From NCBI RefSeq assembly GCF_029946185.1, contig NZ_JAQSEA010000060.1, positions 1-63,587 on the forward strand: a stretch of 63,587 bases of DNA, given 5' to 3'. The notes below the pieces were generated by a model. That model was given only the letters and a program-made list of their open reading frames with translations, searched no databases and was not told where the DNA came from. The DNA comes from Prosthecobacter sp. GTDB lineage: Bacteria; Verrucomicrobiota; Verrucomicrobiia; Verrucomicrobiales; Verrucomicrobiaceae. The stretch's first letter is position 1. Each line of letters begins with the position of its first letter. A program made the translations under genes and the position numbers. Shown piece after piece: positions 26,162 through 45,077 of the stretch.

Positions 26162-27232
26162 TCACTCCTCAGTCACTTCCCGACGGCACAGCCTGTCTCC
26201 CCAGAAGGTGGCGACGAGCAGGCTGCTGAGCGCGAGAAGTCCCAGTCCGTTGAGCACGTGGAAGTTGGTGACCCAGAAGCTTTTGCCGGTCAGGATCACG
26301 AAGATGCCCAGCGCCACCTGCACGGTGGGCATGAACAGCAGCAGCGTAGCAACAGGGCGCATCCGCGGCAGCGTGATGAGCCAGCGCCGCGCACGAACAG
26401 CAACAAAAATGATCAGCAATGCGACGGTGAAGCCCCAGTATTTGTGCGCGAAGAGCAGAAACACATCCGGCGGGTGCACCGGCGGCAACCACTGGCCTTT
26501 GGTGGTGAGGATGTCACTGGCGGCGAGATAGGTGCGCTGTGTGTGGCGCAGGCTGGCCCCCAGAATGAGCTGGCCGAAGATGCATAGAAACAACGCCAGC
26601 GACCAAAAGCGTGCGCGAGCGGCTTGTTTAAGGTTGAGCACAAGACGGCCTTCCGTCCAAGTGCGGGAGGAGGCGAAAGCGATGAAGACCAGCAGGCAGT
26701 AGAACAACTGACCGAGCGTCCCATGCGTGATGCCCAGCGGGTCAGACATTTTCAAGACCCGCAAACCACCGAGGGAGGCCTGCACCACGACCAACATCAA
26801 AGCGAGCGTGGTCAGGCCGCGCAGCAAGGGCCAGCGCTGACTGTACCATTTCAAGACCAGCCAGCATAAACCGAGAATCCCGATAAATGCAGCGGTGCCC
26901 ACTGCCCCCATGAAGATCAGCACCAGAAAGCCGAAGGAACAGAGAATGATACCGACACCCTCCATGGAGCCGGGTTTAAACTTGGCAAACTGCCAGAAGT
27001 ACATGCCCAGCACCAGAAAACCAATGGTGGTGGCGATCCAGCGGTGCCCGTGCTCAAGCAGCAGCGCAGGCACCTTGTACCAGCCCTCGGGGTTGAGCTT
27101 GCCGTAACACAGCGGCCAGTCGGGCACGGAGAGGCCGACGTCTTCCGTGGTCACCGCTGCGCCCCACCAGATTAGCACTACGCCAACGGCGAGCGTGAAC
27201 AGGGCATAGCGATGAAAGGCGCGGGAGTGCAT
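26162..27232 (-). CDS. ctaA: Haem A synthase
   Basis: A 356-residue membrane protein of the COX15/CtaA family, which oxidises the C8 methyl of haem O to give haem A for aa3 oxidases. It has about eight transmembrane helices in two halves. The haem-ligand motifs are visible: LLEHGHRWIA near residue 60, GITHGTLGQLFY near 170, FAHKYWGF near 263 and NFHVLNG near 325. The start was set at MHSRAFHRYALF; an upstream ATG adds 14 residues and is less likely. It follows the coxB gene on the same strand after a strong hairpin, so it serves the neighbouring oxidase but may be separately or attenuated expressed. Confidence 0.93.
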   Translation of the reverse strand: MHSRAFHRYALFTLAVGVVLIWWGAAVTTEDVGLSVPDWPLCYGKLNPEGWYKVPALLLEHGHRWIATTIGFLVLGMYFWQFAKFKPGSMEGVGIILCSFGFLVLIFMGAVGTAAFIGILGLCWLVLKWYSQRWPLLRGLTTLALMLVVVQASLGGLRVLKMSDPLGITHGTLGQLFYCLLVFIAFASSRTWTEGRLVLNLKQAARARFWSLALFLCIFGQLILGASLRHTQRTYLAASDILTTKGQWLPPVHPPDVFLLFAHKYWGFTVALLIIFVAVRARRWLITLPRMRPVATLLLFMPTVQVALGIFVILTGKSFWVTNFHVLNGLGLLALSSLLVATFWGDRLCRREVTEE

Positions 27233-27265
27233 TATGTCACAGATCAGGAACGTATGGTAAAAGCA

Positions 27266-27301
27266 GAAGGGCAAAATAATGAGGTCATTATTTTGCCCTT
27301 C
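27266..27301 (-). terminator. Perfect 17-bp hairpin between coxB and ctaA
   Basis: GAAGGGCAAAATAATGA (27266-27282), a GG spacer, then its exact reverse complement (27285-27301), followed on the transcribed strand by TGCTTTTACC. It lies 26 bp after the coxB stop and 34 bp before the ctaA start. A second small hairpin, CCATCC-GAGA-GGATGG (27309-27324), precedes it. This should terminate or strongly attenuate the respiratory operon before ctaA. Confidence 0.75.
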
Positions 27302-27327: not shown

Positions 27328-28143
27328 TTAGTGAGCAGCAACAGGCTTCGGCGCGGCGGCTTCGGCGGCCTCGATCTTCTTTTTCGCGGCGTCGGACTGC
27401 TCCTTGGCCCAGGCGTCATATTCGGCGGCGGGCACCACTTCGAGAATGGCTTTCATCTGGGCGTGGCCCGGGCCGCAAAGCTGACCGCAGATGATGTCCC
27501 AACTGCCTTCCTTGATCGGCTTGAACCACATGTGGCTCTTCACACCAGGGGTGGCATCCTGAGCAGCACGCATCGGCACGAGCGCGAGATTGTGAATCAC
27601 GTCCTTGCTGGCGACGTCAACGATGACTGGACGGCCCACAGGGAGTTTCATGGTGCCGGGATTGACGAAGTCGTCCTTGCCGTTCGGGTCGTGCAGGTCT
27701 TTACCCATGGTGTTGGTGGCGCCATCAACATTGCGCAGGTCCCACGTGCTGAGCATCATGTCGGTCCCGGGATATTGGAAGTTCCAGAGGAACTTCTCGC
27801 CCAAGGCGCGCATGCGAATGGTGTCGGGGGAGGTGGGGTAGTCATCCGCCTGGCGGGACCAGAGCGGGAAGGCGAAGCCGAGAAGGAGAATGGCTTCCAC
27901 GATGACCACGCCGATTTCGATGTGGGTGGTCGCATGGCCACGGAAGCCATAGTAGTCGGCCCGGGCGGTCTTCTTCTGACGGAAACGATAGAAGGCGATG
28001 GCCAGATAAATGGACCAGCCCGCGCCCAGCACGACCATGAACCAGTGGACAAAGCCCAGCATGTGGTCAACAAGGGCACCGTGTTCAGAGGCGTTTACGG
28101 TCTGGCCCATCCAGACATTGATAGAATCGAGTTTAAGGGTCAT
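27328..28143 (-). CDS. coxB: Cytochrome c oxidase subunit II
   Basis: A 271-residue aa3-oxidase subunit that accepts electrons from a periplasmic donor through the dinuclear CuA centre. Two transmembrane helices (about 28-52 and 72-95) precede a cupredoxin domain. The CuA ligands are present: H184, C219, C223, H227 and M230 (CGQLCGPGHAQM), with Gln221 where many homologues have Glu. There is no C-terminal haem c motif, so this is not a caa3-type fusion; the donor must be a separate protein. The Lys/Ala-rich C-terminus is low complexity. It is the last gene of the 17-gene operon, unlike most cox clusters, where coxB precedes coxA. Confidence 0.95.
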   Translation of the reverse strand: MTLKLDSINVWMGQTVNASEHGALVDHMLGFVHWFMVVLGAGWSIYLAIAFYRFRQKKTARADYYGFRGHATTHIEIGVVIVEAILLLGFAFPLWSRQADDYPTSPDTIRMRALGEKFLWNFQYPGTDMMLSTWDLRNVDGATNTMGKDLHDPNGKDDFVNPGTMKLPVGRPVIVDVASKDVIHNLALVPMRAAQDATPGVKSHMWFKPIKEGSWDIICGQLCGPGHAQMKAILEVVPAAEYDAWAKEQSDAAKKKIEAAEAAAPKPVAAH

Positions 28144-28589: not shown

Positions 28590-28922
28590 CTACTGCTGTT
28601 CGACAGGGGCGTAGAAGCCGGGGAAAACGAGCGGGTCTTCGTGGGCCAGGATGAAAAGTGTGAAGAGAACAATCGCAAAGACCACGGTGAAGGCGAGGAT
28701 CTTGTAAATCAGACTGCTCTCATGGTTAAGATGCATGAAGATCAGAGCCACCATCGAGGCTTTGATCGTCGCCAGAATCATGCCGACGAGGATGTTCAGG
28801 CTGTGGGTGGGAAGCTCTACATAGGAAAGTCCCACGGTGGCACCGCTCAGAATCATCAGGGCACCCCCGATGATGAAGTACCACTTGATCGATTTTTGGA
28901 TTGCTTCGACGTTGTCAGCCAT
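28590..28922 (-). CDS. Cytochrome c oxidase subunit IV (prokaryotic type)
   Basis: A 110-residue protein with three transmembrane helices (about 15-35, 42-64 and 73-95), matching the bacterial COX4/CyoD-like family: the middle helix contains ILVGMILATIKASMVALIFMHL, ending in the family's conserved FMHL. It stabilises the catalytic core rather than carrying cofactors. Position between coxC and the two small proteins is as expected. Start and length are typical. Confidence 0.88.
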   Translation of the reverse strand: MADNVEAIQKSIKWYFIIGGALMILSGATVGLSYVELPTHSLNILVGMILATIKASMVALIFMHLNHESSLIYKILAFTVVFAIVLFTLFILAHEDPLVFPGFYAPVEQQ

Positions 28923-28943: not shown

Positions 28944-30293
28944 TTAGAGGAGGTAAAGGAGAGGGAAGAGGAAGATCCAGACGAGATCGACGAAGTGCCA
29001 GAACAGGCCGCCGACTTCGACGCGATTGGCGAGATGCTCAGGGTCCTGACGCAGGCGCTTGCCGTCAAACACCAAGAAGTAGAGCAGCACCCCGGCACCG
29101 GCGACCACATGCAAACCGTGAAGACCGGTGAGTGTGAAGTAGATGGCGTAGTAGGTGTTCAGCTTTGGCGTGAAGTTGGAGAAGAAAGTGAAATCCTTCT
29201 TTTCCAGCACCACGGTGGGGTGATGGGCGTGTCCTTCGCCATGACCTGCGGCCGGGGCGTGAGCTTCAGCACCATGAGCATCGCCATGGGCGGCACCTTC
29301 AGCAGGAGGCTCGGCGGAGTTCAGTTTAAAGTAGAGCGCGTCTTTCTGCAGCGTGGCAGAGCGGGACTTATCACGGGTCGGGTAATCCTTTTCAAACTCA
29401 CTGATGTGATGATCACGATTCTCGACGAAGGCCTTCTGCCAGGCGTCGCCAAGGTAGCGGTGATCAAAGGCGAGGGACTTTTCCGACTGCGCCACGCCAC
29501 GTGCATCGACGCCATCGACTTCGAGGGTCATTTTGTCATCGGTCAGCTTGCCGGTGGCGGTGGTGCCGTCACGGAAGGTGATGGTCGTTTCGGTGTAGCC
29601 AAAAATCTCGGAAGGCTTGGCTGCAAGTTTAATCGGTGCGGTGGCAACGAGCTTGATGGAAGCGGTGCCCTTGTTTTCTGCTTTGGCCTTTTTAAGCGCC
29701 TCTGCGATGAGGGCCTCAATTGATGCCTCGTCCAAGGTGATTTCCTGGCCGCTTTCGGTTTTGAACTTAGGAGCGGTGCCTTCGATGAACGGCAGAACGT
29801 AACCGACGGGATCCGCGGTCACAGCAGTGTGTTTGACAGGAACCGAAAGCGCGAGCTCGGTGACACCGTCGAACTTCACTTGGTAGCCATGGGGAAGATG
29901 GCCGGTGAGCAGGGTGCCGTCTGTAAGCTTCACGGCGTAGTGGGCGAACTTGGCCTTGTACTCGAGCGTCTTGTTGAACATGAAGACACCGGCGCAAAGC
30001 ACGGTGAGGGCCATGTTGATGCGATACCAGCCGAACTTGCGCAGCTTGAGCATGGCCAGGGCCATGAGCACGGTCACCGAGGAGGCAATGAGGACGACGG
30101 TGTTGATGAAGCCGAGCCTCACATCCAGATCATGCACCGGCCACGGATAGTCGGCGCCGACGCGAAGGAAGATGTAGGCAGAAAACAAGCCGCCGAAGAG
30201 CATGACTTCCGAGGCGAGGAAGAGCCAGATGCCGATCTTCGCATTGTAAAGACCGGTGTCTGGACGGGCGTGAACTGTGTAGGGGATGTCCAT
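28944..30293 (-). CDS. coxC: Cytochrome c oxidase subunit III with a large internal insertion
   Basis: A 449-residue protein, more than twice the usual length for this compact subunit III type. Residues 1-115 hold the first three helices (KIGIWLFLASEVMLFGGLFSAY, then two more and NKTLEYKAKF). The last 90 residues resume with YYAIYFTLTGLHGLHVVAG and end in HFVDLVWIFLFPLLYLL. Between them, about residues 118-350, is a soluble insertion containing two similar segments (KLTDGTLLTGHL, TFRDGTTATGKL), a Lys/Ala-rich helix and a His-rich loop (HGDAHGAEAHAPAAGHGEGHAHH). The frame is continuous and codon use is uniform, so it is not a fusion by sequencing error. The insertion's role is unknown. Confidence 0.93.
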   Translation of the reverse strand: MDIPYTVHARPDTGLYNAKIGIWLFLASEVMLFGGLFSAYIFLRVGADYPWPVHDLDVRLGFINTVVLIASSVTVLMALAMLKLRKFGWYRINMALTVLCAGVFMFNKTLEYKAKFAHYAVKLTDGTLLTGHLPHGYQVKFDGVTELALSVPVKHTAVTADPVGYVLPFIEGTAPKFKTESGQEITLDEASIEALIAEALKKAKAENKGTASIKLVATAPIKLAAKPSEIFGYTETTITFRDGTTATGKLTDDKMTLEVDGVDARGVAQSEKSLAFDHRYLGDAWQKAFVENRDHHISEFEKDYPTRDKSRSATLQKDALYFKLNSAEPPAEGAAHGDAHGAEAHAPAAGHGEGHAHHPTVVLEKKDFTFFSNFTPKLNTYYAIYFTLTGLHGLHVVAGAGVLLYFLVFDGKRLRQDPEHLANRVEVGGLFWHFVDLVWIFLFPLLYLL

Positions 30294-33127: not shown

Positions 33128-33853
33128 TTACTTGGCGGCAGGTGCGGGTGCAGCGGCAGCGGTAGCGCCGGGACCAGCGGGGATGTCGCCGGGAACATTC
33201 TTGTCAGCAAAAGGCTCCAGTTCGGAGATGGTCCACTGGGAGGTGCGTTTCTCTTCATCGCGCACCTTCTGCACCATGTCTTTGGTGATCATGGTGGCCT
33301 CGTTGCCCCAGGAATTGCGGATGAAGGTCAGCACGTTGGCAAGGTCTTGGGAGGACATCGTGCCACCAAAGGGCTGCATGCCGCCGGGGGTGTTGAAGCC
33401 CTGGCCATTGACAGTGACAGGTCCGATAAGGCCGTGCTGAACGATGCGGATCAGACGCTCGGTGCCACCCACAACATATTCAGACTTAGCAAGAGGGGGG
33501 AACTGGCCGGGAAGGCCGCCACCGTTGCCCTGATGGCAACCACCGCAAACGGCATAGCCGCTGGAGCCTTTTTTCATGGCAAGCGCAAAGGGATCCAGCG
33601 CATCTCCTACTCCGGCTCCGCCTGGACGTGGATCACCACCACCCGCGGTGGCGAAGGGATTGCTGACATTGAAGCTCCAGCCGCCGGTCATGGGGCCAAG
33701 CTGGCCGCCGGCGATGATGGCGACGATCATGAGCAAAAACATGGCCCAGAGGGGCGCAGGCTGGCTTTCGGGAGCGAGATCTACTTTCTCGCGCTTCACA
33801 GCATTGTGAAGGCGGTCGAGATCGGTGCTGTCTGGATGGGCGGGGGCGCTCAT
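33128..33853 (-). CDS. Membrane-anchored monohaem cytochrome c
   Basis: A 241-residue protein with a cytoplasmic N-terminus, one transmembrane anchor (about 36-55), a Gly/Pro-rich linker (57-90) and a class I cytochrome c domain. The haem-binding motif is CGGCH at 103-107; a distal Met is available in GGMQPFGGTM. The Pro/Ala-rich C-terminus is low complexity. Placed between the CcoO-like gene and the cupredoxin-like gene, it probably carries electrons from Alternative Complex III to the oxidase. Confidence 0.88.
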   Translation of the reverse strand: MSAPAHPDSTDLDRLHNAVKREKVDLAPESQPAPLWAMFLLMIVAIIAGGQLGPMTGGWSFNVSNPFATAGGGDPRPGGAGVGDALDPFALAMKKGSSGYAVCGGCHQGNGGGLPGQFPPLAKSEYVVGGTERLIRIVQHGLIGPVTVNGQGFNTPGGMQPFGGTMSSQDLANVLTFIRNSWGNEATMITKDMVQKVRDEEKRTSQWTISELEPFADKNVPGDIPAGPGATAAAAPAPAAK

Positions 33854-33879: not shown

Positions 33880-34560
33880 CTACTTTTTGGCGGGAGCGGC
33901 AGCAACGGCTGCAGCCTGTCCGGGAACGGGATAATCCTTTTTCAGGGAGAGAAGGTATTCGACGAGTTGCTTGGCTTCTTGAGTCGGAACGACTTCATAA
34001 CCGGCAGGTGCCGCGAATTTTCTTGGCAGCTTCACGGCACCCTCGGAGATGGGTCCCTGGATTTTCTGCAGCTTAAAGAGGCCGGTGTAGGCGGGCATCG
34101 TGCTCCAGTCATGGACGGAACGCGGTGAGTAGAGGTGCTGGTAGAGAGCGGCCTTGGAAGGAGCACGCCAGCCGAAATTGGCGAGGTCTGGGCCGACACG
34201 CTGAATGCCGAGCAGGGCGTATTTCTCGCCGAGGTAGTCACCCAGAACGTTGGGACGCGCCGGAGTGGTGGGGCGGGCTTCCTGATCCTGGCCCCAGCCT
34301 TTGTACCAGCCGTCGAGGCCGAGCTGAACCGGACGAATCATCTGTGTGTGGCACTGATTGCAGCCTTCACGGATGTAAACGAGCTGGCCCTGGCCATTGA
34401 CGGGAGCAGGCGGGAAGAATCCTTCGACGCCGTCCTTGTCCTTGTCATAAGCGACAGGGGTGAGCTGCTCGTACTGCATCGCCGGGAGAACGATGAGACA
34501 CAGCCAAGGCAACCCGAAGGAGGCGGCGAGACCGAGAATGAATGTGCGGAAGTTCGTCAT
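33880..34560 (-). CDS. CcoO/FixO-like membrane cytochrome c
   Basis: A 226-residue protein of the cbb3 oxidase subunit II family. It has an N-terminal anchor (about 8-28) and a monohaem domain with CNQCH at 67-71 followed by the family motif TQMIRP, and distal Met155 in the WSTMPAY segment. The family's RVGPDLANFG block is intact, so haem c binding is expected. Its ATG overlaps the stop of the CcoN-like gene by four bases, so the two are made together. Because that CcoN-like partner lacks an oxygen-reduction site, this protein probably serves as an electron-transfer subunit rather than as part of a cbb3 oxidase. Confidence 0.9.
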   Translation of the reverse strand: MTNFRTFILGLAASFGLPWLCLIVLPAMQYEQLTPVAYDKDKDGVEGFFPPAPVNGQGQLVYIREGCNQCHTQMIRPVQLGLDGWYKGWGQDQEARPTTPARPNVLGDYLGEKYALLGIQRVGPDLANFGWRAPSKAALYQHLYSPRSVHDWSTMPAYTGLFKLQKIQGPISEGAVKLPRKFAAPAGYEVVPTQEAKQLVEYLLSLKKDYPVPGQAAAVAAAPAKK

Positions 34561-36044
34561 GCGTGGGCTTCGTGGGGAAGAGCGTGATCGTCGTGGTCGT
34601 GTTCAAGCAAGGTGGGTGCCGAACTGCGGCGACCCAGACCTGCGACCATGAGCAGAAGGTGAAGAAGGAACATGAGGTTGGAGAAACTGATGAGCGCCCA
34701 GGCCACCGCACGAGAGACCACGTAGGGGCGGGAATTGATGACGTGATTCATGAAGGTCTGGTCCCAATGGTCGGGATCGTTCAGATCCACACCCTGCTGC
34801 CAGCCGGCCACAAGACTCATGATGACAATGGTGCCGATGCCATAGACCGAGAACCAGAAGTGGTTGCGGATCAGGCGGACGCTGAGCCATTCACAGCCGG
34901 AGAGACGGGGGACAATGTAGTAGATGGCACCAAAGATGCACATGCTGAAGAAGCCGTACACGCTGACTGTCTGGAAAGCGTACCAGGACTGGGTGAACTG
35001 CAGATTGGCACCAGTCCAGAACGCGGAATTCAGGGCGAGAACCAAGCCCGACACGGGGTAGAAGAGTGCTCCGAAGAAGATGAAGCGAAGGGTGGGGCTG
35101 GCGGCCACAGCACTGTGCTTGCCAAGGGTCGTGAGGTGGTGATTGAGGCCGACAAGACACACTGGAATCAGCAGCAGCACACCGGCGCATGCGCCTACCG
35201 AGGACATCCACGCTGGTAGCGGGCCACCCATGTATTTCTGCATACCCGTCCAACCGCCAAGGATGGCGAGGCTCCAGAAACCGGCGGATGCAAGCTGTGC
35301 CGAAGCAATGGGCTGGCCGGTGATCTTTGGAATGAAGTAATAAGCGGAGCCGACACCGACGGGGACGAAGAACAGAAGGATCACTCCGTGGATGTACCAA
35401 GCGTCAATACCGGCACCAATGGCACCCAGGCCCGGCAGGCAATGCAGAGCGACGTTGGCGGTGATGAAGATCCAAGGGAACCAGAAGCAGGCACCAAGGA
35501 TGTACCAGGTGCTGACCATGAAGCCCTCAGGACGGAAAGCACGGCTAAACATGCGGACGATGGGCCAGGCGTAGCAAAGGAAGCAGACCAGCAGCACGGG
35601 CCAGACAAACTTGGGCATCTCCAGCCACTCGATCGAGGTGCTCTTGCCCATGAGAACGGCGATGATACCAAAGGTGATGGTGATGTTCCAAAACACGCCA
35701 GCGGTGATGAGGAGGCTCTTGCCACCCTTCAATTCCTGACCGGAGCGACGTGCCATGATCCACAGCATGACGCCCAGAGCGGCCTGAACTCCCCAGCCAT
35801 AAACGAGGGCATTGATGTGCGCAGGCTGCAGTCTGCCATAGGTGAGATACTGGCAGTCTCCAAGAAACTCAGGTTCCACCAGCTTGATCGCGGCGAGGAC
35901 GCCGAGCAGGGTGGAAAGCATGAGCCAGAAGGCTCCGTTGGTGAAGAGAAAGAGCACAGGGCCTTTCACCGACTTGTCGATCGCCGCGCGGCGAAGATTG
36001 TCGGCCTGAAGCTCTGTGTCAGGAATAGCGGGAGTGGTCTGCAT
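34557..36044 (-). CDS. CcoN-like haem-copper oxidase homologue lacking active-site ligands
   Basis: A 495-residue protein with about twelve helices, aligning throughout with cbb3 oxidase subunit I. H76 (LQPAHINALVYGWG, low-spin haem) and H219 (WYIHGVILLFF, first CuB ligand) are kept. The helix carrying the cross-linked Tyr and the CuB His pair (LYIWAGPHH in cbb3) reads LGGWTGMQK, so Tyr becomes Gly263 and His-His becomes Gln269-Lys270. The haem b3/b ligand motif HVH aligns with FQT (357-359) in WYAFQTVSVYGF. No CuB or b3 centre can form as in known oxidases. It is probably a structural or quinone/proton-related subunit; automated tools would call it an oxidase. Confidence 0.85.
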   Translation of the reverse strand: MQTTPAIPDTELQADNLRRAAIDKSVKGPVLFLFTNGAFWLMLSTLLGVLAAIKLVEPEFLGDCQYLTYGRLQPAHINALVYGWGVQAALGVMLWIMARRSGQELKGGKSLLITAGVFWNITITFGIIAVLMGKSTSIEWLEMPKFVWPVLLVCFLCYAWPIVRMFSRAFRPEGFMVSTWYILGACFWFPWIFITANVALHCLPGLGAIGAGIDAWYIHGVILLFFVPVGVGSAYYFIPKITGQPIASAQLASAGFWSLAILGGWTGMQKYMGGPLPAWMSSVGACAGVLLLIPVCLVGLNHHLTTLGKHSAVAASPTLRFIFFGALFYPVSGLVLALNSAFWTGANLQFTQSWYAFQTVSVYGFFSMCIFGAIYYIVPRLSGCEWLSVRLIRNHFWFSVYGIGTIVIMSLVAGWQQGVDLNDPDHWDQTFMNHVINSRPYVVSRAVAWALISFSNLMFLLHLLLMVAGLGRRSSAPTLLEHDHDDHALPHEAHA

Positions 36045-36047
36045 GGC

Positions 36048-36623
36048 TTACTGGGGCGAAGCGGGTGCGGCAGGGGCTGGGGCTGGAACTGCAGGAATCG
36101 GAGGAGCCGGCGTTGCGGGAGTAGTCGGGACAAACGTGGTAGGAATCGGCGGAGCTGGCGTTCCAGAAATAGAAGGAGGAGGAGCCATCGGAGCTGCCGG
36201 GGCAGCAGGTGCGGGGGTCGCTGGGGCCTGAGTAGCAGGCACCGCCGGGGCAGCAGGCGCTGCTGGTGCAGGAGCGGTAGGGGCAGGGGCAGTAGCTGCA
36301 GCGGCCTGTTTGAGCTGGGTAGGTGATCCGGGGACAACCTGAGTGCTCAGACCGGCTTTTTTTGCACCGAGTTCGGCGATCGTCTTTTCAAAGACCGCTT
36401 TCTTCTTGGCGTCGTCGTTCAGACCGAGCTTGGCGATGTTTTCATTCTGCGCCTTCAGGATCTCAGCGGTGTTGTCACTACGCTCTTGCGCACGTGGGTC
36501 AAAACCTTCTTTCGAGTCATTGAGGGCTTGGATGAGGACGAAGAGCACGGCGAAGCCAGCGAAGGCTCCGAGCACCCACACAAAGGTGGCACCGGCTTTT
36601 TTAGATGGATCAGGCTGCGACAT
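36048..36623 (-). CDS. Membrane-anchored Pro/Ala-rich protein of the act operon
   Basis: A 191-residue protein with a single transmembrane helix (about 14-32, VWVLGAFAGFAVLFVLIQAL), a charged helical segment (about 38-88, rich in Lys/Asp/Glu) and a tail of about 90 residues made almost entirely of Pro, Ala and Thr. The tail resembles the flexible linkers that hold periplasmic domains at a distance from a membrane complex. It lies 14 bp after actF and 3 bp before the CcoN-like gene. No cofactor motif is present. A tether or assembly subunit is the likeliest role; no family is recognised. Confidence 0.68.
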   Translation of the reverse strand: MSQPDPSKKAGATFVWVLGAFAGFAVLFVLIQALNDSKEGFDPRAQERSDNTAEILKAQNENIAKLGLNDDAKKKAVFEKTIAELGAKKAGLSTQVVPGSPTQLKQAAAATAPAPTAPAPAAPAAPAVPATQAPATPAPAAPAAPMAPPPSISGTPAPPIPTTFVPTTPATPAPPIPAVPAPAPAAPASPQ

Positions 36624-36637
36624 GGAAAAACGGGGAA

Positions 36638-37966
36638 TCAGTTGATGACGTTCACGGACTCAATGAGGCGCGGGTCACGCCATGGATACAGACTGTATTT
36701 GGCCAGACCACGAAGGTAGAGGAAGCCCATAGTGCCAAAAACAGCGCACAGAGCGGCAATGTCCTGCACCCATGCGTAGGGAACCAAGACGCCCTGGCCC
36801 AGGGAGGGACCGCGCTCAGGAATGACATTCCAGTACATGTCCACCAGGTGCATGAACAGAATCCAGAGGCAGCCGATGCTGATGTAGGTGGTGTTCTTCT
36901 TTTTCTGTTGCGAGAGCAGGAAGAGGAAGGGAACGACGAAATGTCCGATGAGGATGAAGATGGACACATCGCGCCAGCCTTCCGTGTTACGGGTGAGGTA
37001 GAAGCGGGTTTCTTCCGTGATGTTGGCATACCAGATCAGGAAATACTGGCTGAAGGAGATGTAAGCCCAGAACACCGTGAAGGCGAAGAGCAGCTTACCC
37101 ATGAGATGGTAGTGCTCGTCCGTGACAACCTTCTGCAGGTAGCCCAGACTGCGCAGCCAGATGACGATCAGAATTGACGCCGCCATGGAGGACCAGGCGC
37201 AGCCTGCGAAGATGTAAACTCCCCACATGGTGGAGAACCAGGTGTAGTCGAGACCCACAAGCCAGTCATAGGCAGCGAAGGTGACGGTCAGGGCGTAGAA
37301 GAGCAGCACAATGCAGGAGAACTGCCGCGCTTTGATCGTGTGCTTGATGTCGCCATCCTGATCCTGCTTGACGGACTTGCCGCGCAGGGTGCGGGCGATG
37401 AACCAGAGGATGAGGAAGTAAAGCCCGAAGCGGATGTACCAGCCGTTCACGTTCATGTAGCCAAACTTGGCGACCAGCACGTGCAGGTGTGGGTTGGCTG
37501 CCAGGTGCTGATCAGGATCTCCTTCAACCACGAGATGGTGAAGCGCTGCCTTGACCGAAGTGTGATGATGCTCCGCCAAAGTCTTCGCGTGGTCGTGGTG
37601 CTGCATCCACTCATAAAGAGGCCGGTTCACGGCTGGCAGCAGCAACGGGGAGGCAAGGATGGCCAAGGGGATAACCATGTTGGCCATGTTTTCCCAGATA
37701 CGACGCACGGCGACACCCCAGCTCGAATTGGAGGCGCTGTGGAGCAGGATCCAGAAGCAGCCGCCGGCCACGAAGGTAAAGCTGAAGAAGACCGCAAACA
37801 GCCAGGAGTAGGCGAAAGTGTCCGTGTTCTTGAAGAAGAAGAAGGCTGAAGCTGCGAGGCCGATCAGGCCGAAAAGCCCGAATGTGCCGATGAGCTTGCC
37901 GCCCTTGGCCGGTTCGAATTTTTCTCCGCCCTGGGGCAGATCTTTGAAGGTGACGTGGTGACTCAT
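36638..37966 (-). CDS. actF: Alternative Complex III subunit ActF
   Basis: A 442-residue polytopic membrane protein with about ten helices, of the NrfD-related but cofactor-free ActF family. In ACIII, ActC and ActF are the two homologous membrane subunits; quinol is oxidised at ActC, and ActF has been discussed for proton conduction. Typical segments include FYALTVTFAAYDWLVGLDYTW near 225-245 and FSQYFLIWYANITEET near 305-320. A His-rich loop (HHDHAKTLAEHHH) lies near 122-135. The gene follows actE by 24 bp. Confidence 0.92.
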   Translation of the reverse strand: MSHHVTFKDLPQGGEKFEPAKGGKLIGTFGLFGLIGLAASAFFFFKNTDTFAYSWLFAVFFSFTFVAGGCFWILLHSASNSSWGVAVRRIWENMANMVIPLAILASPLLLPAVNRPLYEWMQHHDHAKTLAEHHHTSVKAALHHLVVEGDPDQHLAANPHLHVLVAKFGYMNVNGWYIRFGLYFLILWFIARTLRGKSVKQDQDGDIKHTIKARQFSCIVLLFYALTVTFAAYDWLVGLDYTWFSTMWGVYIFAGCAWSSMAASILIVIWLRSLGYLQKVVTDEHYHLMGKLLFAFTVFWAYISFSQYFLIWYANITEETRFYLTRNTEGWRDVSIFILIGHFVVPFLFLLSQQKKKNTTYISIGCLWILFMHLVDMYWNVIPERGPSLGQGVLVPYAWVQDIAALCAVFGTMGFLYLRGLAKYSLYPWRDPRLIESVNVIN

Positions 37967-37990: not shown

Positions 37991-38680
37991 TTACTGGAGG
38001 GGAAGGGTGGCGCCAGACTCTTTAGCGGCGATTTGCAGGGAGCGGATGTAGGCCACAATAGCCCAGCGGTCGCGCAAAGTGATGTTGCCGCCGTAGCCGC
38101 CCATCAGGCCTTTGCCGTGAGTGATGACATCAAAGATGGCACCATCCGCGCGGTAGGCTGCGGCATTGGCAGGGTCCAAATTGCCAGCCTGCTGAAAGTT
38201 GAAGGAGGTGAGGATGCCGTATTTGGAGGTCACACCTTTGCCGTTGCCGGAGGTGCCGTGGCAGATGGCGCAGTTGATGTTATAACGCTGCTCGCCGCGC
38301 TTGATGAATTCAGCGTTGAAGACGGTCTTGTCGTTGGTGATTTCGACTGGCAGACCGTCGCCGTAGAAGTCGCCGACTTTACCGGTGTCATAGTAACCCA
38401 GACCGCTGGTGAAAGCGATACGGGCAGGCTTGGCAATCTCCGTCGCCGACGCTGGTTGCGCGGGGACTTCAAAACCCATGGGCAGGGTGCCTTTGACCGG
38501 CAGGCGAGCGCCGCGGCCGTCCGCAAAGAATTCGCTGCTGGCCTGGTATTTCACCTTGGCCTGTTGATCCATGTCAGGAATGATTTCGAGCGGCGGCAAT
38601 TCAGATTTGCTGCCACGGAAACCAAACGCGCTCACGACGATCGCGATAACAAAGAGATAGCTGAGAAAGAAGTACTTCAT
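37991..38680 (-). CDS. actE: Alternative Complex III monohaem cytochrome ActE
   Basis: A 229-residue protein with an N-terminal hydrophobic signal/anchor (about 4-20) and one c-type haem motif, CAICH at 137-141 (YNINCAICHGTSGNGKG). The likely distal Met is in KGLMGGYGGN. Subunit ActE takes electrons from the pentahaem ActA and passes them to the soluble or membrane cytochrome that feeds the oxidase. Order and spacing (18 bp after actD) match ACIII clusters. Confidence 0.93.
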   Translation of the reverse strand: MKYFFLSYLFVIAIVVSAFGFRGSKSELPPLEIIPDMDQQAKVKYQASSEFFADGRGARLPVKGTLPMGFEVPAQPASATEIAKPARIAFTSGLGYYDTGKVGDFYGDGLPVEITNDKTVFNAEFIKRGEQRYNINCAICHGTSGNGKGVTSKYGILTSFNFQQAGNLDPANAAAYRADGAIFDVITHGKGLMGGYGGNITLRDRWAIVAYIRSLQIAAKESGATLPLQ

Positions 38681-38698: not shown

Positions 38699-39298
38699 TT
38701 AGATTTCGTCCTCCACGAGTTCGATGTTCTTGCCGCCGGCTTTTTCGAGAAGGCTCTTGGTGCCTTCCTGGGAGAATTTGGGGTCACGGGCTTCGATGCA
38801 GACGAAGAAACCGTCGTCAGAGAATTTGCCGAAGTTCTTGGAAACAAACAGCGGGTGATTCCAACGGGGCAGGCCGATGAGCGCCAGCAGGCCGAACAGC
38901 GTGGTGAAGGCGCTGAAGAGAATCGTCAGCTCAAACATCACCGGGAAGAATGCTGGCAGAGTCCAGATGTCGGTAGGCTTGCCCTGCACGACGGTCGGGT
39001 AAGTTTCGACGATCTTTTGCAGGAAGCCGAGGCCGATGCTGCTCCAGAAGTTGGTCTGCGTGATCGTTTCCAAGGTGAAAGCGACCATGGTGCCGGTGAT
39101 GCCACCGCAGAAGACGAGGATGGGGAGTTTCGAGCGTGGATTGCCCATCGCGTCATCCATCCCGTGAATCGGGAAGGGCGAATGGACGTCCCAGCGCTGG
39201 TAGCCGGCATCGCGCACATGCTCGGCGGCATGGTAGAGATCCTTCACGCTGTCAAATTCAGCGAGGTAGCCGTGGACTCGTTTGAGGGTGGTGCTCAC
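38699..39298 (-). CDS. actD: Alternative Complex III subunit ActD (DUF3341)
   Basis: A 199-residue membrane protein of the DUF3341 family: an N-terminal soluble segment with the characteristic YHAAEHVRDAGYQRWDVHSPFP-type start (residues 21-43), two transmembrane helices (about 60-82 and 112-142), and a C-terminal acidic tail ending ELVEDEI. ActD has no cofactor and anchors the complex. The conserved SPFPIHGMDDAMG block is clear. It is preceded by actC at 21 bp. Confidence 0.94.
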   Translation of the reverse strand: MSTTLKRVHGYLAEFDSVKDLYHAAEHVRDAGYQRWDVHSPFPIHGMDDAMGNPRSKLPILVFCGGITGTMVAFTLETITQTNFWSSIGLGFLQKIVETYPTVVQGKPTDIWTLPAFFPVMFELTILFSAFTTLFGLLALIGLPRWNHPLFVSKNFGKFSDDGFFVCIEARDPKFSQEGTKSLLEKAGGKNIELVEDEI

Positions 39299-39319: not shown

Positions 39320-40783
39320 TTAGGCGACAACGGGTTTGGCGACATGACGGTCGGCGTAGTCCATGAGGTCTTCCTCCTGGATGCCCTTCTCAGCATGGTC
39401 GTCCTGGTGCGGGTTCGACTGGGCGCAGACTCCTTTGACTTCACCAATGGCGATGACAGGCAGGAAACGCAGGAAGAGCAGGAAGAGCATCATGAAGAAG
39501 CCGAAGGTGCCGAGGAAGGTGTACTTATCGACCCAGGTGGCCTGATAGACGCCCCAAGAGCCCGGTGTCATGTGGCGCTCCAAGGTGGTGGCGATGATGA
39601 CGTAGCGCTCAAACCACATGCCGGCGTTCACGAACATGCAGACGATCATGACGACCCAGATATTGTGGCGGCACCAGCGGCTCCAGAAGAGCTGCGGGGC
39701 AAACACGTTGCAGCTGAACATCCAGTAGTAGGCCCAGGTGGAAGGACCGGTGAGACCACGCAGCGTGAAGGCAGCGGCTTCATACGGATTGGCGCTGTAG
39801 TAGGCCACGAAGAGCTCCATGCAGTAGGCGTAACCAACGATCGTGCCCGTGAGCAGGATGATCTTGGCCATGTTGTCGATGTGCTTCGCTGTGATGAGGT
39901 CATCCAAGCCGTAGATGCGGCGCACGGGAAGCATGAGGGTCAGCACCATCGCGAAACCACCGAAGATGGCACCTGCGACGAAGTAGGGCGGGAAGATCGT
40001 GGTGTGCCAGCCGGGAACGACGGAAGTGGCGAAGTCGAAGGACACGACGGAGTGCACGGAGAGCACCAGTGGCGTCGAGAGAGCGGCCAGCAGCAGGTAG
40101 GCAGTCTCATAGTGGCTCCAGTGGCGGTTGCCACCGCGCCAGCCGAGTGCAAACAGGCCGTAGAGGAACTTCTTCAGGCCCGGACGGCAGCGGTCACGCA
40201 GGGTGGCAAGGTCGGGCACGAGACCCAGGAACCAGAACACAAGGGAGACGGAGAAGTAGGTCGAAACAGCGAACACGTCCCAGAGGAGGGGAGACTTGAA
40301 GTTCTGCCAGATGGCGTTGGCGTTCGGGATCGGAGCGAGGAACCACACCATCCAAACACGACCGACGTGGAAGGCCGGGAACAAACCGGCGCACATCACG
40401 GCGAAGATCGTCATGGCTTCCGCAGCACGGTTCACCGAGGTACGCCACCGCTGGCGCGTGAGGAACAAGATGGCGGAAATGAGCGTGCCCGCGTGACCGA
40501 TACCAATCCAGAACACGAAGTTCGTGATATCCCAAGCCCAGGCGACCGGCTGCTTCTGGCCCCAGACTCCGACGCCGGTGGAGATGAGGTAGGTAAAGCA
40601 GAACACCATCAGTCCCGTCAGCAAGACGGAAGGGACGAACAGGACCCACCAGAGGGCGGGCTGCTTATTTTCAACGATGCCGCAAATGCGGTTCGTGATC
40701 CACGAATAGGAGCGGTTGTTCAACACCAACGGCTCGCGTTCGAGGATGCGCGGTGTGTTATTTGCTGTAGCGGAGGCGTCCAT
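39320..40783 (-). CDS. actC: Alternative Complex III quinol-binding subunit ActC (NrfD-like)
   Basis: A 487-residue NrfD/PsrC-type membrane protein with about ten helices. The conserved [19 protein letters not shown] segment (about 97-115) and the [11 protein letters not shown] block (about 138-148) near the quinol site are present, as is [24 protein letters not shown] (about 246-269) with its acidic residue. ActC oxidises menaquinol or ubiquinol at the periplasmic face and hands electrons to the Fe-S clusters of ActB. The gene lies 9 bp after actB and has standard length. Confidence 0.95.
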
Positions 40784-40792
40784 GTGTCCGGT

Positions 40793-43700
40793 TTAGAATT
40801 GGTTGTTGCTCCACACGGCGATGTTTTCTGCGCCGGGCATGTCCTTGTTCGGATTGCGCAGGCGGGCGAGGTAACTCGTGCGCGGGCGGGTACCGATGTA
40901 TTTGAGCACCTGATAATCGCGAGGTGATGCCTTCGATTTGGTGACGGCGGAATTCGGATCGGCCAAATCACCGAAGATGATGGCGTCGGCCGAGCAGGAC
41001 TGCTGGCAGGCGGTTTTCACAGTGTCGGTCGGCACGCGGAAGTCCTTGGAGTCGCGCTGCACCTGCTTCTGCAGGATTTTGGCGGATTCGAGGCGCTGCA
41101 CGCAGTAGGTGCACTTCTCGATGACACCACGCATACGAACGGTGACGTTCGGGTTGCGCTGGAGGCGGAGGCTTTCGTCCTCGCGCTTCTCGCCCAGAGG
41201 GCCGGCGTAGAGGTTGCCGACTTTCAGGCCGAGCACGGAAGTTTCGATGAGCGGATTGCGCTTGTTGTAATCGAAAAAGTTGAAGCGGCGGGCGGTGTAA
41301 GGGCAGTTGTTCGCGCAGTAGCGCGTGCCGATGCAGCGATTGTAGGCCATCGCGTTGAGACCATCGGGGGTGTGAACGGTAGCGTTCACAGGGCAGACGG
41401 TTTCGCACGGGGCGGATTCACACTGCTGGCAGGCCACAGGCTGCTGCACCATTTCGGCGTTCTCAAGCTGCTCCGGCGTGGCGTTGTCTTCAGCGAAGGT
41501 ACTTTCCTGATCCACACCCACGGAGCCGTCTTCATTCTTGTGCGTGCCCCATTTGGACACGGCGAAGTAGCGGTCCATGCGGATCCAATGCATCACACGG
41601 CCTTTGCGCACCTGATCTTTACCGACAACTGGAATGTTGTTTTCGCTCTGGCAGGCGATGATGCAAGCCGTGCAACCAAGGCACTTGCTGAGATCGATCG
41701 TCATGCCCCACTGGTGCTGCTTCTCGTAGTCGAAGCCGTCTGGATTCGTCTCGGATTTGACACCGACCTGCCCTTTGTAGAGGGAAATATTTTCCGGGAT
41801 ATGGCCGTCCATGCCGGTCTTCTGGGCAAAGGCGACATCCTTGTTGAAGGTGTCGAGCGTACCTTCACGGTACACAGCGCGGCCTTCCATCGTGTTCTGC
41901 GACTGCGTGATGGCGAGTTCAGCGACGGTGGAGAGGACTTCGATCTTGGCACCGCTCAGGACGAACGTGCCGGGCTGCTTGCGCAGGGCATAGGCGTTCA
42001 CACCGCGGTCGCCACTGACCATGCCAACGCCAATCTGACCGTAGCCGAGAGGCAGGGTGATGGAATTGGAGACATGCCCGGGAGCTTCGATGGCGGGGAT
42101 TTCAATTTCGGCGCCGCCGACGGTGATTTTGACGTGCTGGCCTTCTTTGAGACCCAGACGACGGAAGGTGAAGGAGCCAATCCAAGCCGCATTTTCCCAG
42201 GTGAGTTTCGTCACTGGATCGGGCGCTTCTTGAAGCCAGGCGTTGTTGACGTAGCGGCCATCATAGACGCTGGAGTCAGGCACGAGGACGACTTCGAGAG
42301 CATCGTCCGTCGGAGCGACGACTGGCGTGGCTTTCGCGACGAAGTCAGCGACTGCGGCGACATTCGGGGCTCCGGCGGCCTTGGCGTAGGCGGAACCTTT
42401 GAGGAAACCGTCACGCAGGGTGAAATTCCATTTCGTTTCGTCGAGGCTGCCAGCCACGGTGGCGAAAGTGTCGCGCACAGCGGTGTAAGCGGCGTCTTCG
42501 GCCGGGGCAGCAGGAGCGGCGGCGGCACCAGCGGCGGCAGGCGCAGCTGCTTCGACCGGGCCGAGCTTTTTGCGGTCGAGGAGAGCCAGCAGGATTTCCA
42601 CACGGCTGGCACCGTCAAACAACGGTGCGATCATCGGCTGGACGATCGAGTATGTACCATCAGCGGCACGCACGTCTCCCCAGACTTCAAGATAATGAGC
42701 GGCTGGAATATGCAGCGCAGCCTGACGTGACGTGACGTTTGCCTGAGTGCCGAAGTGAATGAGCTTCACGCCTTTGTCTGCCACAAGCTTGGCCAGTGCC
42801 GCAGCATCCGGTGCATCATAGTAGAGGCTGGCAGGAGTCAGCGAAATGAGTGTTTTCACCTGACCACCACCGATTGCAGTCTGCAAATCGGCGAAGGTGC
42901 CGAGCTCAGGAGCCGCAGGTGCTTGAAGGAGGTCGATGGTTGAACCGTAAGCGCCCAAGGCGTTGTTGATCGAAGCGACCAGTGCATGCACTTCCGCGCC
43001 ATAGCGGGTACCAGCGAGCACGACGGCCTTGCCTTTGTTGTCGATCAAATCACGCACCGCAGGAGCGATCCAGTCTTTGAGGCTTGCGGGTGCCGTATCA
43101 GCCAATGCCTTGGCGGAGGCGTCTCCAAGCTGAGCAGCGATCAAGGCTGCGGCCACAGGGATGAGACTTGCCGCGAGCGGCTTGCGATGATCGGCCATGC
43201 CACCGGTCAGCGTGTAACGATTTTCCAAGACGTAGAGACGGTTCATGTCCGCCGTCGCCTTGTCCTTAGCACGATGCTTGGTGAAGGCAGAGATGGGCTC
43301 GCCTGCCACAGGGTCCACCCCGAGGAAATCGCAGTCCAGTGAGAGAATGCGCATCGCGGAGCCGAGCTTCACGAAGGACTTCACATCAGCGCCCAGCACT
43401 TGCTTGCTCGCTGCGGACTGGCCTTCGCCACCCACTGCTTCGTATTGGAACAGTTTAATCTGGGGAAAAGCAGCCTTCACCTCGCCCAGCAGACGCTGGT
43501 AGGTCGGAGAAGTGGAGCCGCCCATCACGATGCCAAGGCTGGCACCTGAGGACTTTTTCGCTTCAGCAATGGCTGCAGAGAGCAGTTCGTTCGCCTTGGC
43601 CCAGGAGAGTTCCTTGCCAGCGCCCATCGGCTTCTGGGAGCGCTCAGGATCGTAAAGATCCAGCACGGAAGCCTGTGCAAAACTGCTAAGACCGCCACCC

Positions 43701-44089
43701 AGCGGGTGCAGCGGATTCGGGGAAAGATGAGTCGGACGACCTTCGTGGGTAGTGACCACCAGGGGCACAGCACCGCCGTTTTGCGGCATGGATGTGGCGT
43801 ACATCAGCGACTTGCCCGGCACCATCCATTCGACGTGCTGGGTGTAAGGCAGGATGTTGATGAGCGGACGGCGGCAGCTGGCCAGACCCATCATGCCCAC
43901 GCTGGCACCCATGATCTTCAAAAACTCGCGGCGGCTGTTCTCACGCTCTTCCTCGTTCAGGGTGTCCCCCTCAGGGAATTCACGGCCCAGATTCTTCAAG
44001 AAATCTTCACGACGGTCCAGTTCGGCGACACTGCGCCAGTAACGCTTAGCGTTCTGCGGCTCCTCAGGATGCTTCCAAATTTTTTTCAT
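40793..44089 (-). CDS. actB: Alternative Complex III iron-sulfur/molybdopterin-like subunit ActB
   Basis: A 1098-residue fusion of a molybdopterin-oxidoreductase-like domain (about 90-720) and a ferredoxin-like domain (about 770-1060). An internal Tat motif, SRREFLKIMGAS, lies near residues 52-63, so it is exported folded. The first domain lacks cofactor-binding cysteine motifs, as usual for ActB. The second has four Fe-S ligand sets: CLGCTACIIAC, CQQCESAPCETVCP, CIGTRYCANNCP and CTYCVQRLES/CQQSC, giving three 4Fe-4S and one 3Fe-4S cluster by family precedent. A low-complexity Ala/Pro stretch (about 517-530) is inserted in the first domain. It relays electrons from ActC to the ActA haems. Confidence 0.96.
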   Translation of the reverse strand: MKKIWKHPEEPQNAKRYWRSVAELDRREDFLKNLGREFPEGDTLNEEERENSRREFLKIMGASVGMMGLASCRRPLINILPYTQHVEWMVPGKSLMYATSMPQNGGAVPLVVTTHEGRPTHLSPNPLHPLGGGLSSFAQASVLDLYDPERSQKPMGAGKELSWAKANELLSAAIAEAKKSSGASLGIVMGGSTSPTYQRLLGEVKAAFPQIKLFQYEAVGGEGQSAASKQVLGADVKSFVKLGSAMRILSLDCDFLGVDPVAGEPISAFTKHRAKDKATADMNRLYVLENRYTLTGGMADHRKPLAASLIPVAAALIAAQLGDASAKALADTAPASLKDWIAPAVRDLIDNKGKAVVLAGTRYGAEVHALVASINNALGAYGSTIDLLQAPAAPELGTFADLQTAIGGGQVKTLISLTPASLYYDAPDAAALAKLVADKGVKLIHFGTQANVTSRQAALHIPAAHYLEVWGDVRAADGTYSIVQPMIAPLFDGASRVEILLALLDRKKLGPVEAAAPAAAGAAAAPAAPAEDAAYTAVRDTFATVAGSLDETKWNFTLRDGFLKGSAYAKAAGAPNVAAVADFVAKATPVVAPTDDALEVVLVPDSSVYDGRYVNNAWLQEAPDPVTKLTWENAAWIGSFTFRRLGLKEGQHVKITVGGAEIEIPAIEAPGHVSNSITLPLGYGQIGVGMVSGDRGVNAYALRKQPGTFVLSGAKIEVLSTVAELAITQSQNTMEGRAVYREGTLDTFNKDVAFAQKTGMDGHIPENISLYKGQVGVKSETNPDGFDYEKQHQWGMTIDLSKCLGCTACIIACQSENNIPVVGKDQVRKGRVMHWIRMDRYFAVSKWGTHKNEDGSVGVDQESTFAEDNATPEQLENAEMVQQPVACQQCESAPCETVCPVNATVHTPDGLNAMAYNRCIGTRYCANNCPYTARRFNFFDYNKRNPLIETSVLGLKVGNLYAGPLGEKREDESLRLQRNPNVTVRMRGVIEKCTYCVQRLESAKILQKQVQRDSKDFRVPTDTVKTACQQSCSADAIIFGDLADPNSAVTKSKASPRDYQVLKYIGTRPRTSYLARLRNPNKDMPGAENIAVWSNNQF

Positions 44090-44112: not shown

Positions 44113-44919
44113 TTAGCGATGGCAGGTGGTGCAGGATTCCGGCGGCTGAATCTGCCAGTGCTTCTTAATCTGGGTGCCCACTTCAGTCTGGGTCACTTTT
44201 TTGCCGTAAGTTTTCTCCGCGAGAGCGACGATCTGTTCAAGGCTGTCAGCCTTGGCGCCTTCACCGCCGATCGTAGTGGCGATCTCGCCTGCCGGAACCT
44301 TCTTGTCGAGGAGAGTCTTATAAAACTCGTCACGCTTCAAATCATCAGGCTTGTAGTCCAACTTGGTGACGAACTCGAGAGGGCGCAGGCTCTTCTCGGG
44401 ATTGCGGTGGCAGTCAAGGCACCAGCCCATGGACTGGGGCTGATCGTGGCGGACGACTTCCATCTCGTTGATCTTGCCGTGGCAGTTCACGCAGGAGATG
44501 CCGCGGTTGAGATGGGCGCTGTGATTGAAATAGACGTAGTCAGGCGCCTTGTGGACTTTGACCCAAGGGATCGAGCTGCCGGTTTCGTTGGCTTTGATCA
44601 CCATCTCCAGCTTGGGAGAGTTGCTGCGGATATTGCCTTTGCCCGGGCCATGGCAGTTGAAGCAGGTCTGATTCGTCGGCACATTCGAGTGGCTGGAGGA
44701 CTCAACGAAGCTGTGGCAGTACCGGCAGTCGAGCGCGAGCTGTCCCGCATGGATCTTGTGCGAAAAGGGCACAGGCTGCGTCGGTTCATAACCTACGCGA
44801 GTGTATTTTGGTGTGAAGTAGTAGGCAATGCCGACACTCACGCCGAAGGCAATGAACACGACGGCAATGGCGAGCTTGAGCGGCAGCCAGTTGCTCCAAC
44901 GCGGAAAAAAGTTAGCCAT
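44113..44919 (-). CDS. actA: Alternative Complex III pentahaem cytochrome ActA
   Basis: A 268-residue membrane-anchored multihaem cytochrome c. One N-terminal helix (about 12-34) is followed by five CXXCH motifs: CRYCH (65-69), CFNCH (86-90), CVNCH (143-147), CLDCH (167-171) and CTTCH (263-267). This matches the pentahaem ActA of ACIII. The start at MANFFPRW was chosen because the longer frame runs through the CRP-like palindrome and the promoter-like region, and adds residues without similarity to the family. It is the first gene of the 17-gene operon. Confidence 0.95.
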   Translation of the reverse strand: MANFFPRWSNWLPLKLAIAVVFIAFGVSVGIAYYFTPKYTRVGYEPTQPVPFSHKIHAGQLALDCRYCHSFVESSSHSNVPTNQTCFNCHGPGKGNIRSNSPKLEMVIKANETGSSIPWVKVHKAPDYVYFNHSAHLNRGISCVNCHGKINEMEVVRHDQPQSMGWCLDCHRNPEKSLRPLEFVTKLDYKPDDLKRDEFYKTLLDKKVPAGEIATTIGGEGAKADSLEQIVALAEKTYGKKVTQTEVGTQIKKHWQIQPPESCTTCHR

Positions 44920-44940
44920 AGAAAGTGTCGGAAAGATGAG

Positions 44941-44960
44941 CTTGTGAAAAATTTCACAAG
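44941..44960. promoter_or_regulatory. CRP/FNR-type operator upstream of actA
   Basis: CTTGTGAAAAATTTCACAAG is a perfect 20-bp dyad containing TGTGA-N6-TCACA, the half-site arrangement of CRP. It ends 21 bp before the actA start codon. With the promoter suggested at 44968-44996 it would fall at about +1 to +20, a position that favours repression or roadblocking; activation would need a different start site. Confidence 0.65.
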
Positions 44961-44967
44961 GGATTTT

Positions 44968-44996
44968 AGAATAGGGAGACGAGAGCAGGTTTGCAA
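44968..44996 (-). promoter_or_regulatory. Candidate promoter of the act-cox operon
   Basis: On the minus strand TTGCAA (44991-44996) and TATTCT (44968-44973) are separated by 17 bp, matching sigma-70-type elements at four of six bases each. The predicted start site is at about 44961, directly next to the CRP-like palindrome. The gap of 158 bp to the upstream gene is the only sizeable one before the operon. Confidence 0.45.
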
Positions 44997-45077
44997 CCGT
45001 CATCTTGATTTTTTTGAACTTTTATGCGCAATGCTTGTCTATTGCGATTCTGTCTCAAAAAAATACTGAGGAGTGCT

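Follow-up and report, generated by a model that had tools for sequence, protein, structure and literature searches.

A CcoN-like protein without its catalytic site, retained beside alternative complex III in Verrucomicrobiota, is a candidate scaffold for electron exit

The way in which alternative complex III (ACIII) hands its electrons over differs between the species studied (excerpts of PMC8552683). Oxidase gene clusters often follow act clusters, according to the available sections of PMC5928083, and the bridging of ACIII and oxidase is attributed to a sixth haem on ActA in F. johnsoniae and to an extra haem on oxidase subunit II in R. marinus, where the mono-haem ActE is regarded as the exit subunit (excerpts of PMC8552683 and PMC5928083). 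For C-type oxidases, an excerpt of PMC5492636 mentions the "unknown group" of Muntyan et al. 2015. Among the matches listed and in the open-access literature, we recognised no description of a ligand-poor CcoN beside ACIII, which is the arrangement reported here from a Prosthecobacter sp. contig whose whole analysed stretch of 63,587 nucleotides is called the window below.

All genes of the locus lie on the minus strand. The upstream part comprises actA (44113..45003; five CXXCH motifs), actB (40793..44089; Fe-S domains) and the mono-haem c gene actE (37991..38680), which were assigned from domains and position, together with actC (39320..40783; NrfD), actD (38699..39298; ActD Pfam family) and actF (36638..37966), whose products match chains of solved ACIII structures. 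Between actF and the CcoN-like gene lies a gene for a small protein with a Pro/Ala-rich tail (36048..36623) that matched no Pfam or NCBIfam family. The CcoN-like gene itself (N, protein P0001; 34557..36044) ends in a stop codon that overlaps the ATG (ATGA) of the CcoO homologue (O, P0002; 33880..34560), a mono-haem cytochrome c with the motif CNQCH and the axial ligand Met155. Downstream follow the genes for a second mono-haem cytochrome c (P0003, CGGCH; 33128..33853), which resembles Thermus c552 and the cytochrome c domains that occur in fusion with NirK, and for a cupredoxin-like protein (P0005; 32313..33116), and then the aa3 cluster with coxA (A-type oxidase subunit I, P0006; 30330..32291), coxC (COX3, 449 aa; 28944..30293), coxD (COX4_pro; 28590..28922) and coxB (P0008, with a CuA motif and no haem c motif; 27328..28143), beyond which a CtaA/Cox15 family protein is encoded (26162..27274). 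The cupredoxin-like protein has a C-x2-H-x2-M segment and is present in only part of the family's loci between the cytochrome c gene and coxA; it is a possible further electron carrier. COX3 was matched in two separate stretches of the window's CoxC, which seems to hold a long insertion. An original prediction, made from the DNA letters alone, had described an intact frame, coupled to a haem-c-bearing CcoO homologue and embedded in an ACIII/aa3 operon; the ATGA overlap, the CNQCH motif and the act and aa3 clusters on the two sides confirm this.

Profile searches place P0001 (495 aa) in the COX1 superfamily (Pfam COX1, E 2.5e-44), with CcoN as the nearest family (NCBIfam TIGR00780, E 5.9e-39, with a score below the equivalog threshold). 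It matched only five PDB sequences, each of them labelled as a cytochrome c oxidase or cbb3 oxidase, and the best match to a solved cbb3 covers residues 38-455. In the alignment to P. stutzeri CcoN (3mk7), which is gap-free in the motif regions, H60 and H207 correspond to H76 and H219, Y251 to G263, H257/H258 to Q269/K270, H345 to F357 and H347 to T359. Two of the seven cofactor and active-site positions, or two of the six His, are thus kept, and the replacements read from the letters alone (the Tyr by Gly263, the His-His pair by Gln269-Lys270 and HVH by FQT at 357-359) were borne out in full. From the set of three CuB His, the high-spin haem His and the cross-linked Tyr, H219 alone is left, and the bis-His pair of the low-spin haem b is broken, with H76 present and T359 at the H347 position. 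H302 and H303, named beforehand as ligands that might have relocated, were ruled out after alignment of homologues: all 20 intact homologues, each with its full set of ligands, also carry H303, compared with 20 of the 30 ligand-poor rows, and His is found at 302 too in some of the intact sequences. An AlphaFold2 model of P0001 from 48 family sequences (mean pLDDT 88.9) has the CcoN fold, with Z 46.6 and 2.2 Å over 450 residues at 23% identity to 3mk7_A, tied with other cbb3 chains, and a model of the much diverged ligand-poor N of Methylacidiphilum kamchatkense Kam1 from 20 sequences (pLDDT 83.0) gave Z 47.0 to the CcoN of a bc1-cbb3 supercomplex, the alignments behind both models containing intact homologues that bias them toward this fold. 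Because the residues for CuB and the high-spin haem are gone, P0001 should, by established oxidase chemistry, not reduce O2 and can be called a pseudo-oxidase; that it is not an oxidase is near certain. A canonical fused CcoNO in which the seven residues are all present is also encoded in the window's genome.

The gene was found in 66 of the 68 genomes of the window's family, a count of presence only, with gene order read in the fetched loci, and four of the 66 copies are pieces cut at contig ends. The two genomes without it are G030 (68% complete, with a canonical-type match only) and G050 (91% complete, no match). Inner stops are absent from N in the 66 genomes, and in a ligand table of 136 distinct sequences the site is lost in every full-length member of the family. 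Relative to the window, dN/dS was 0.03 to 0.19 for N, from the 10 of 11 pairs that were usable, and 0.03 to 0.20 for coxA (11 pairs), with dS near saturation for the distant pairs. Among 125 ACIII-linked loci longer than 9 kb, which include several genomes twice via two sources, O comes after N in every case, and a cytochrome c gene comes after O in 122; one locus (L180) is cut at this point, and L114 and L116 showed no such gene there. N is preceded by actF in 121 loci, the other four being cut at a contig end just before N. The linkage to act genes is constant, with one sub-clade of the window's genus (e.g., L052-L056, L198, L199) keeping actE and actF alone before N. In this sub-clade actA-D are absent up to 10 kb upstream of N and, in four of its genomes, from a further 15-17 kb, and a single actC was found elsewhere in the genome in all five searched. 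Since actE, actF, N, O, the cytochrome c gene and the cox genes hold together even where the act cluster has split, N-O remains with the haem-bearing exit side of ACIII. The methanotroph genome G138 has an actC on the strand of N, some 11 kb upstream, and actF is the sole act gene seen within 8 kb of N. Purifying selection and the lasting association with CcoO, ACIII and aa3 genes support the view, already put forward in the original prediction, that N is selected for a function other than that of an oxidase.

The loss of the site extends beyond the window's family. We sampled 288 Verrucomicrobiota genomes of at least 85% completeness and classified one locus per genome in the 76 with a match at E <= 1e-28, a cut that may miss more degenerate or more canonical copies. 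Many of the genomes used in this work are assemblies from metagenomes. N was linked to ACIII in 65 of these genomes, with a complete site in 21 and an incomplete one in 44. The 11 other copies, with no actD, actE or actF in the fetched stretch, had all seven residues without exception; one of them (L155, G243) is a canonical fused CcoNO that stands beside actABC on the opposite strand. None of the 44 ligand-poor N proteins keeps the cross-linked Tyr, and one has H at the haem b3 ligand position. As a control, the canonical CcoNO copies that tblastn recovered from 20 ligand-poor genomes were complete in 20 of 20. In G165 the ACIII-linked N reads QQGRHQQ at the seven positions, and a second, unlinked N is complete. 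Two genomes, G080 and G232 (loci L178 and L180), read HNSQRYH, so that of the seven residues just the two ligands of the low-spin haem b are left; these copies could represent a haem b-only intermediate.

A tree of N (81 rows), in which long branches create a risk of false grouping, has three changes between the intact and the lost state, all forced by well-supported branches. The tree of ActB+ActC+ActF (64 rows), which is independent of N and was built by a quick method with SH-aLRT support only, has eight, seven of them forced by well-supported branches, and a losses-only count after midpoint rooting gives nine. The true number would be lower, down to three, if N had been exchanged between lineages independently of act. 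Judged from these trees, the site appears to have been lost several times while the fold of N was retained together with its haem-c CcoO partner and the mono-haem cytochrome c. This loss is not limited sharply to the ligand columns: 47 of 87 other invariant columns are kept versus 1 of 7 ligand columns (p 0.056) and, in other lineages, 23 of 87 versus 0 of 7 (p 0.19), and the idea that the cofactor ligands alone drift was abandoned as not significant.

A linked aa3 oxidase that replaced the lost site was also considered as the general cause. CoxA was found in all 29 ligand-poor genomes searched (of the 44) versus 17 of the 21 intact ones, a difference (Fisher p 0.026) that ignores kinship, as do all the row-based tests here apart from those on independent pairs. 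Among independent pairs, linked coxA and site loss went in the same direction in 0-1 of 7; a linked coxA is missing from 23 of the 49 ligand-poor rows and present in one intact row, and the explanation thus fails in the independent pairs. Many genomes of the f5 family have lost the site without cox genes adjoining, their CoxA homologues being encoded elsewhere, and in L193 a complete site occurs next to cox genes. The proposal that came with the first reading of the locus, a structural subunit of an ACIII-oxidase supercomplex, is in light of the f5 family and L193 too narrow or at least unproven. Two genomes with an intact ACIII-linked N (G212 and G068) have no CoxA at E 1e-40 and no second CcoN at E 1e-15, and in these the C-type enzyme linked to ACIII may serve as a main oxidase. 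No CoxA match was obtained in G194 and G290 either, but both contain a canonical CcoNO.

The CcoO partner has kept its haem c motif. As in the window, O carries CXXCH in 71 of 71 representatives, 56 of which have a ligand-poor N. The axial Met is present in the alignment in 57 of the 71, and all 14 without it pair with a ligand-poor N. In eight of these the position is Cys, all in a second family of the order. Seven loci of that family (L170-L176) carry one more cytochrome c gene, placed between actF and N; Cys replaces the axial Met in the six of them that were aligned, and L177 and L179 share the Cys and lack the extra gene. The haem motif of O also follows the state of N, with the form CxYCH in all 15 rows with an intact N, in the O of all five proteobacterial stand-alone relatives and in 3 of 49 rows with a ligand-poor N, namely the two HNSQRYH rows and L119. 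Among seven independent pairs it goes with the state of N in 5-6 and against it in none (sign test p 0.03-0.06). Such a pattern would be expected if this Tyr mattered only as long as electrons pass from the haem of O into N.

We propose, with a probability of roughly 0.55, that an ACIII-coupled C-type oxidase was reduced, more than once, to a membrane scaffold poor in cofactors that holds the c-haems carrying electrons out of ACIII. An ancestral working C-type oxidase of the N-O-cytochrome c kind would have come to lie behind ACIII in Verrucomicrobiota, and its N would then have lost the catalytic site several times with the fold and the haem-c partners retained. N would sit in the membrane as a scaffold that attaches CcoO, and also the cytochrome c, to ACIII. 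Electrons would pass from quinol through ActB, the haems of ActA and ActE to the haem c of CcoO or to the cytochrome c, and from there to the CuA of aa3 in the window's family or to another acceptor elsewhere. N-O-c would thus act as an electron-exit adaptor of ACIII. We use this term in preference to a strict ACIII-aa3 joint because many f5 genomes lack adjacent cox genes and linked coxA is not tied to site loss. It is from gene order that we infer N to be part of ACIII, and its role as a scaffold or relay is likewise an inference; a supercomplex of ACIII and oxidase that contains N is plausible from gene order. The missing axial Met of O in 14 of 56 ligand-poor representatives weakens a simple relay reading. 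The broader statement, that within one phylum a haem-copper oxidase core independently lost its catalytic cofactors on several occasions and now serves as a cofactor-poor docking platform wiring ACIII to other acceptors, we put forward tentatively, at slightly less than even odds.

Other roles for N have to be weighed against the adaptor. It could be an assembly or stability factor that inserts CcoO and the cytochrome c and loads them with haem, or that assembles ACIII with the oxidase, and not a stoichiometric subunit. The invariable order of N and O (125 of 125 linked loci) and the retained haem motif of O (71 of 71) agree with such a factor, but N conserves the length and fold of a core subunit, and stand-alone relatives with complete sites share the N-O-c order, so that we regard this as unlikely. 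Binding of one low-spin haem b through H76 and another partner residue, with electrons carried through the membrane, is more doubtful still. H76 is kept in 27 of the 30 ligand-poor rows with linked coxA, and two genomes retain exactly the low-spin pair; however, none of those 30 rows has His at the His347 position (T, V, I, L or M instead), and the H76 position is A or Q in most other ligand-poor rows. We give yet less credence to the handling of quinone or protons, for example via retained K-channel-like polar residues, a function suggested in the original prediction for which no evidence was found. Y235, Y236, K240 and N301, which may belong to such a channel, do not vary across 15 intact and 30 ligand-poor rows, but they may be structural, and the corresponding regions of Kam1 read YDYVEG and IDLLQ.

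That N is a decaying remnant is very improbable. A copy in mere decay beside ligand-bearing homologues had been named in advance as the opposite case, and such homologues do exist in other families and many invariant columns have drifted, but the loss is family-wide, and the intact frame (66 of 68 family genomes have the gene without an inner stop), the conserved gene order and the purifying selection, with dN/dS like that of coxA, largely contradict decay and led us to reject it. Equally hard to credit is an oxidase that still works with different ligands. Some oxygen- and NO-reducing relatives tolerate ligand changes, which is the argument for it; against this, H303 stands beside the real ligands in intact homologues, and the N of Kam1 has six His, none of them in HH or HxH and one at the H258 place.

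The loss of the site bears on how oxidase genes of this phylum have been reported. Excerpts of published work describe ACIII genes co-located with a cbb3 oxidase and related to high oxygen affinity (PMC6688271), cbb3 genes that directly adjoin ACIII genes in verrucomicrobial methanotrophs, with C-type oxidase and ACIII together only in these and in Opitutaceae (PMC8498564), a cbb3-type oxidase listed for Methylacidiphilum (PMC10205796) and cbb3-type genes next to ACIII genes (PMC11102522). From the sequences behind these papers, that of Kam1 (G218) was compared here, via its genome: its ACIII-linked N reads SESSHFV, with the His at 258 alone kept. Genes of the pmoA type are present in Kam1 and in G109, G121, G138 and G326; N reads SESSHFV in three of these four additional genomes and ADAAHQT in G326. 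The ACIII-linked N lacks a complete site in all five methanotroph genomes examined, and canonical CcoNO gave no match in them at E <= 1e-15. As judged from Kam1 and the four other genomes, the "cbb3 oxidase beside ACIII" reported for Methylacidiphilum lacks its catalytic site. Genes for cbb3 oxidases are taken as signs of microaerobic respiration, as an excerpt of PMC8407424 states for high-affinity oxidases, and since 44 of the 65 ACIII-linked copies sampled here are without the site, low-oxygen respiration inferred from ACIII-linked cbb3-like genes in some published genomes is doubtful. The warning that annotation would label N a cbb3 oxidase has come true in print, although the NCBI ccoN model would not call it (134 bits versus a curated cut-off of 583). 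Intact, partly lost and fully lost relatives together offer a natural series on the role of an oxidase scaffold after catalysis goes, and the same series bears on how ACIII hands over electrons.

In comparison with described systems, the window's N and O resemble the cbb3 oxidase of P. stutzeri (3mk7), with which they share the CcoN fold over 450 residues and the CcoO partner, and differ from it in five of seven cofactor and active-site residues and in the third gene, which encodes a mono-haem cytochrome c and not a di-haem CcoP. The nearest relatives found outside Verrucomicrobiota, where the search covered plasmids only, are proteobacterial plasmid clusters (Azoarcus KH32C, Cupriavidus metallidurans, Paraburkholderia, Paracoccus and Indioceanicola). 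They have the same N-O-c order at 33-35% identity but, unlike the window, all seven site residues in five of five, and no act genes were found in their fetched stretches. These stand-alone clusters (L202-L206) combine N, O and a mono-haem cytochrome c, and L202 and L204 are annotated as cbb3, with no CcoQ or CcoP gene listed beside them. With their sites complete, these relatives suggest a working oxidase of the three-gene subtype as the ancestor. The orphan CcoN subunits of P. aeruginosa are likewise extra CcoN homologues beyond the canonical oxidase, but these isoforms are functional oxidases, unlike the window's N (excerpts of PMC5697931). Finally, the ACIII-aa3/caa3 supercomplexes of F. 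johnsoniae and R. marinus resemble the window in combining ACIII with an A-type oxidase; the excerpted descriptions of these supercomplexes name no CcoN- or CcoO-like subunit, in contrast to the genes found here. Since ActA has at most five haem motifs in the loci read (lower counts probably reflect loci cut at an edge) and CoxB none, O and the cytochrome c could supply the extra haem, and CcoO and the mono-haem cytochrome c are, by analogy with these supercomplexes, natural candidates for the ACIII-oxidase bridge, with N as their anchor. If so, respiratory supercomplexes would have been built with a retired oxidase as the joint.
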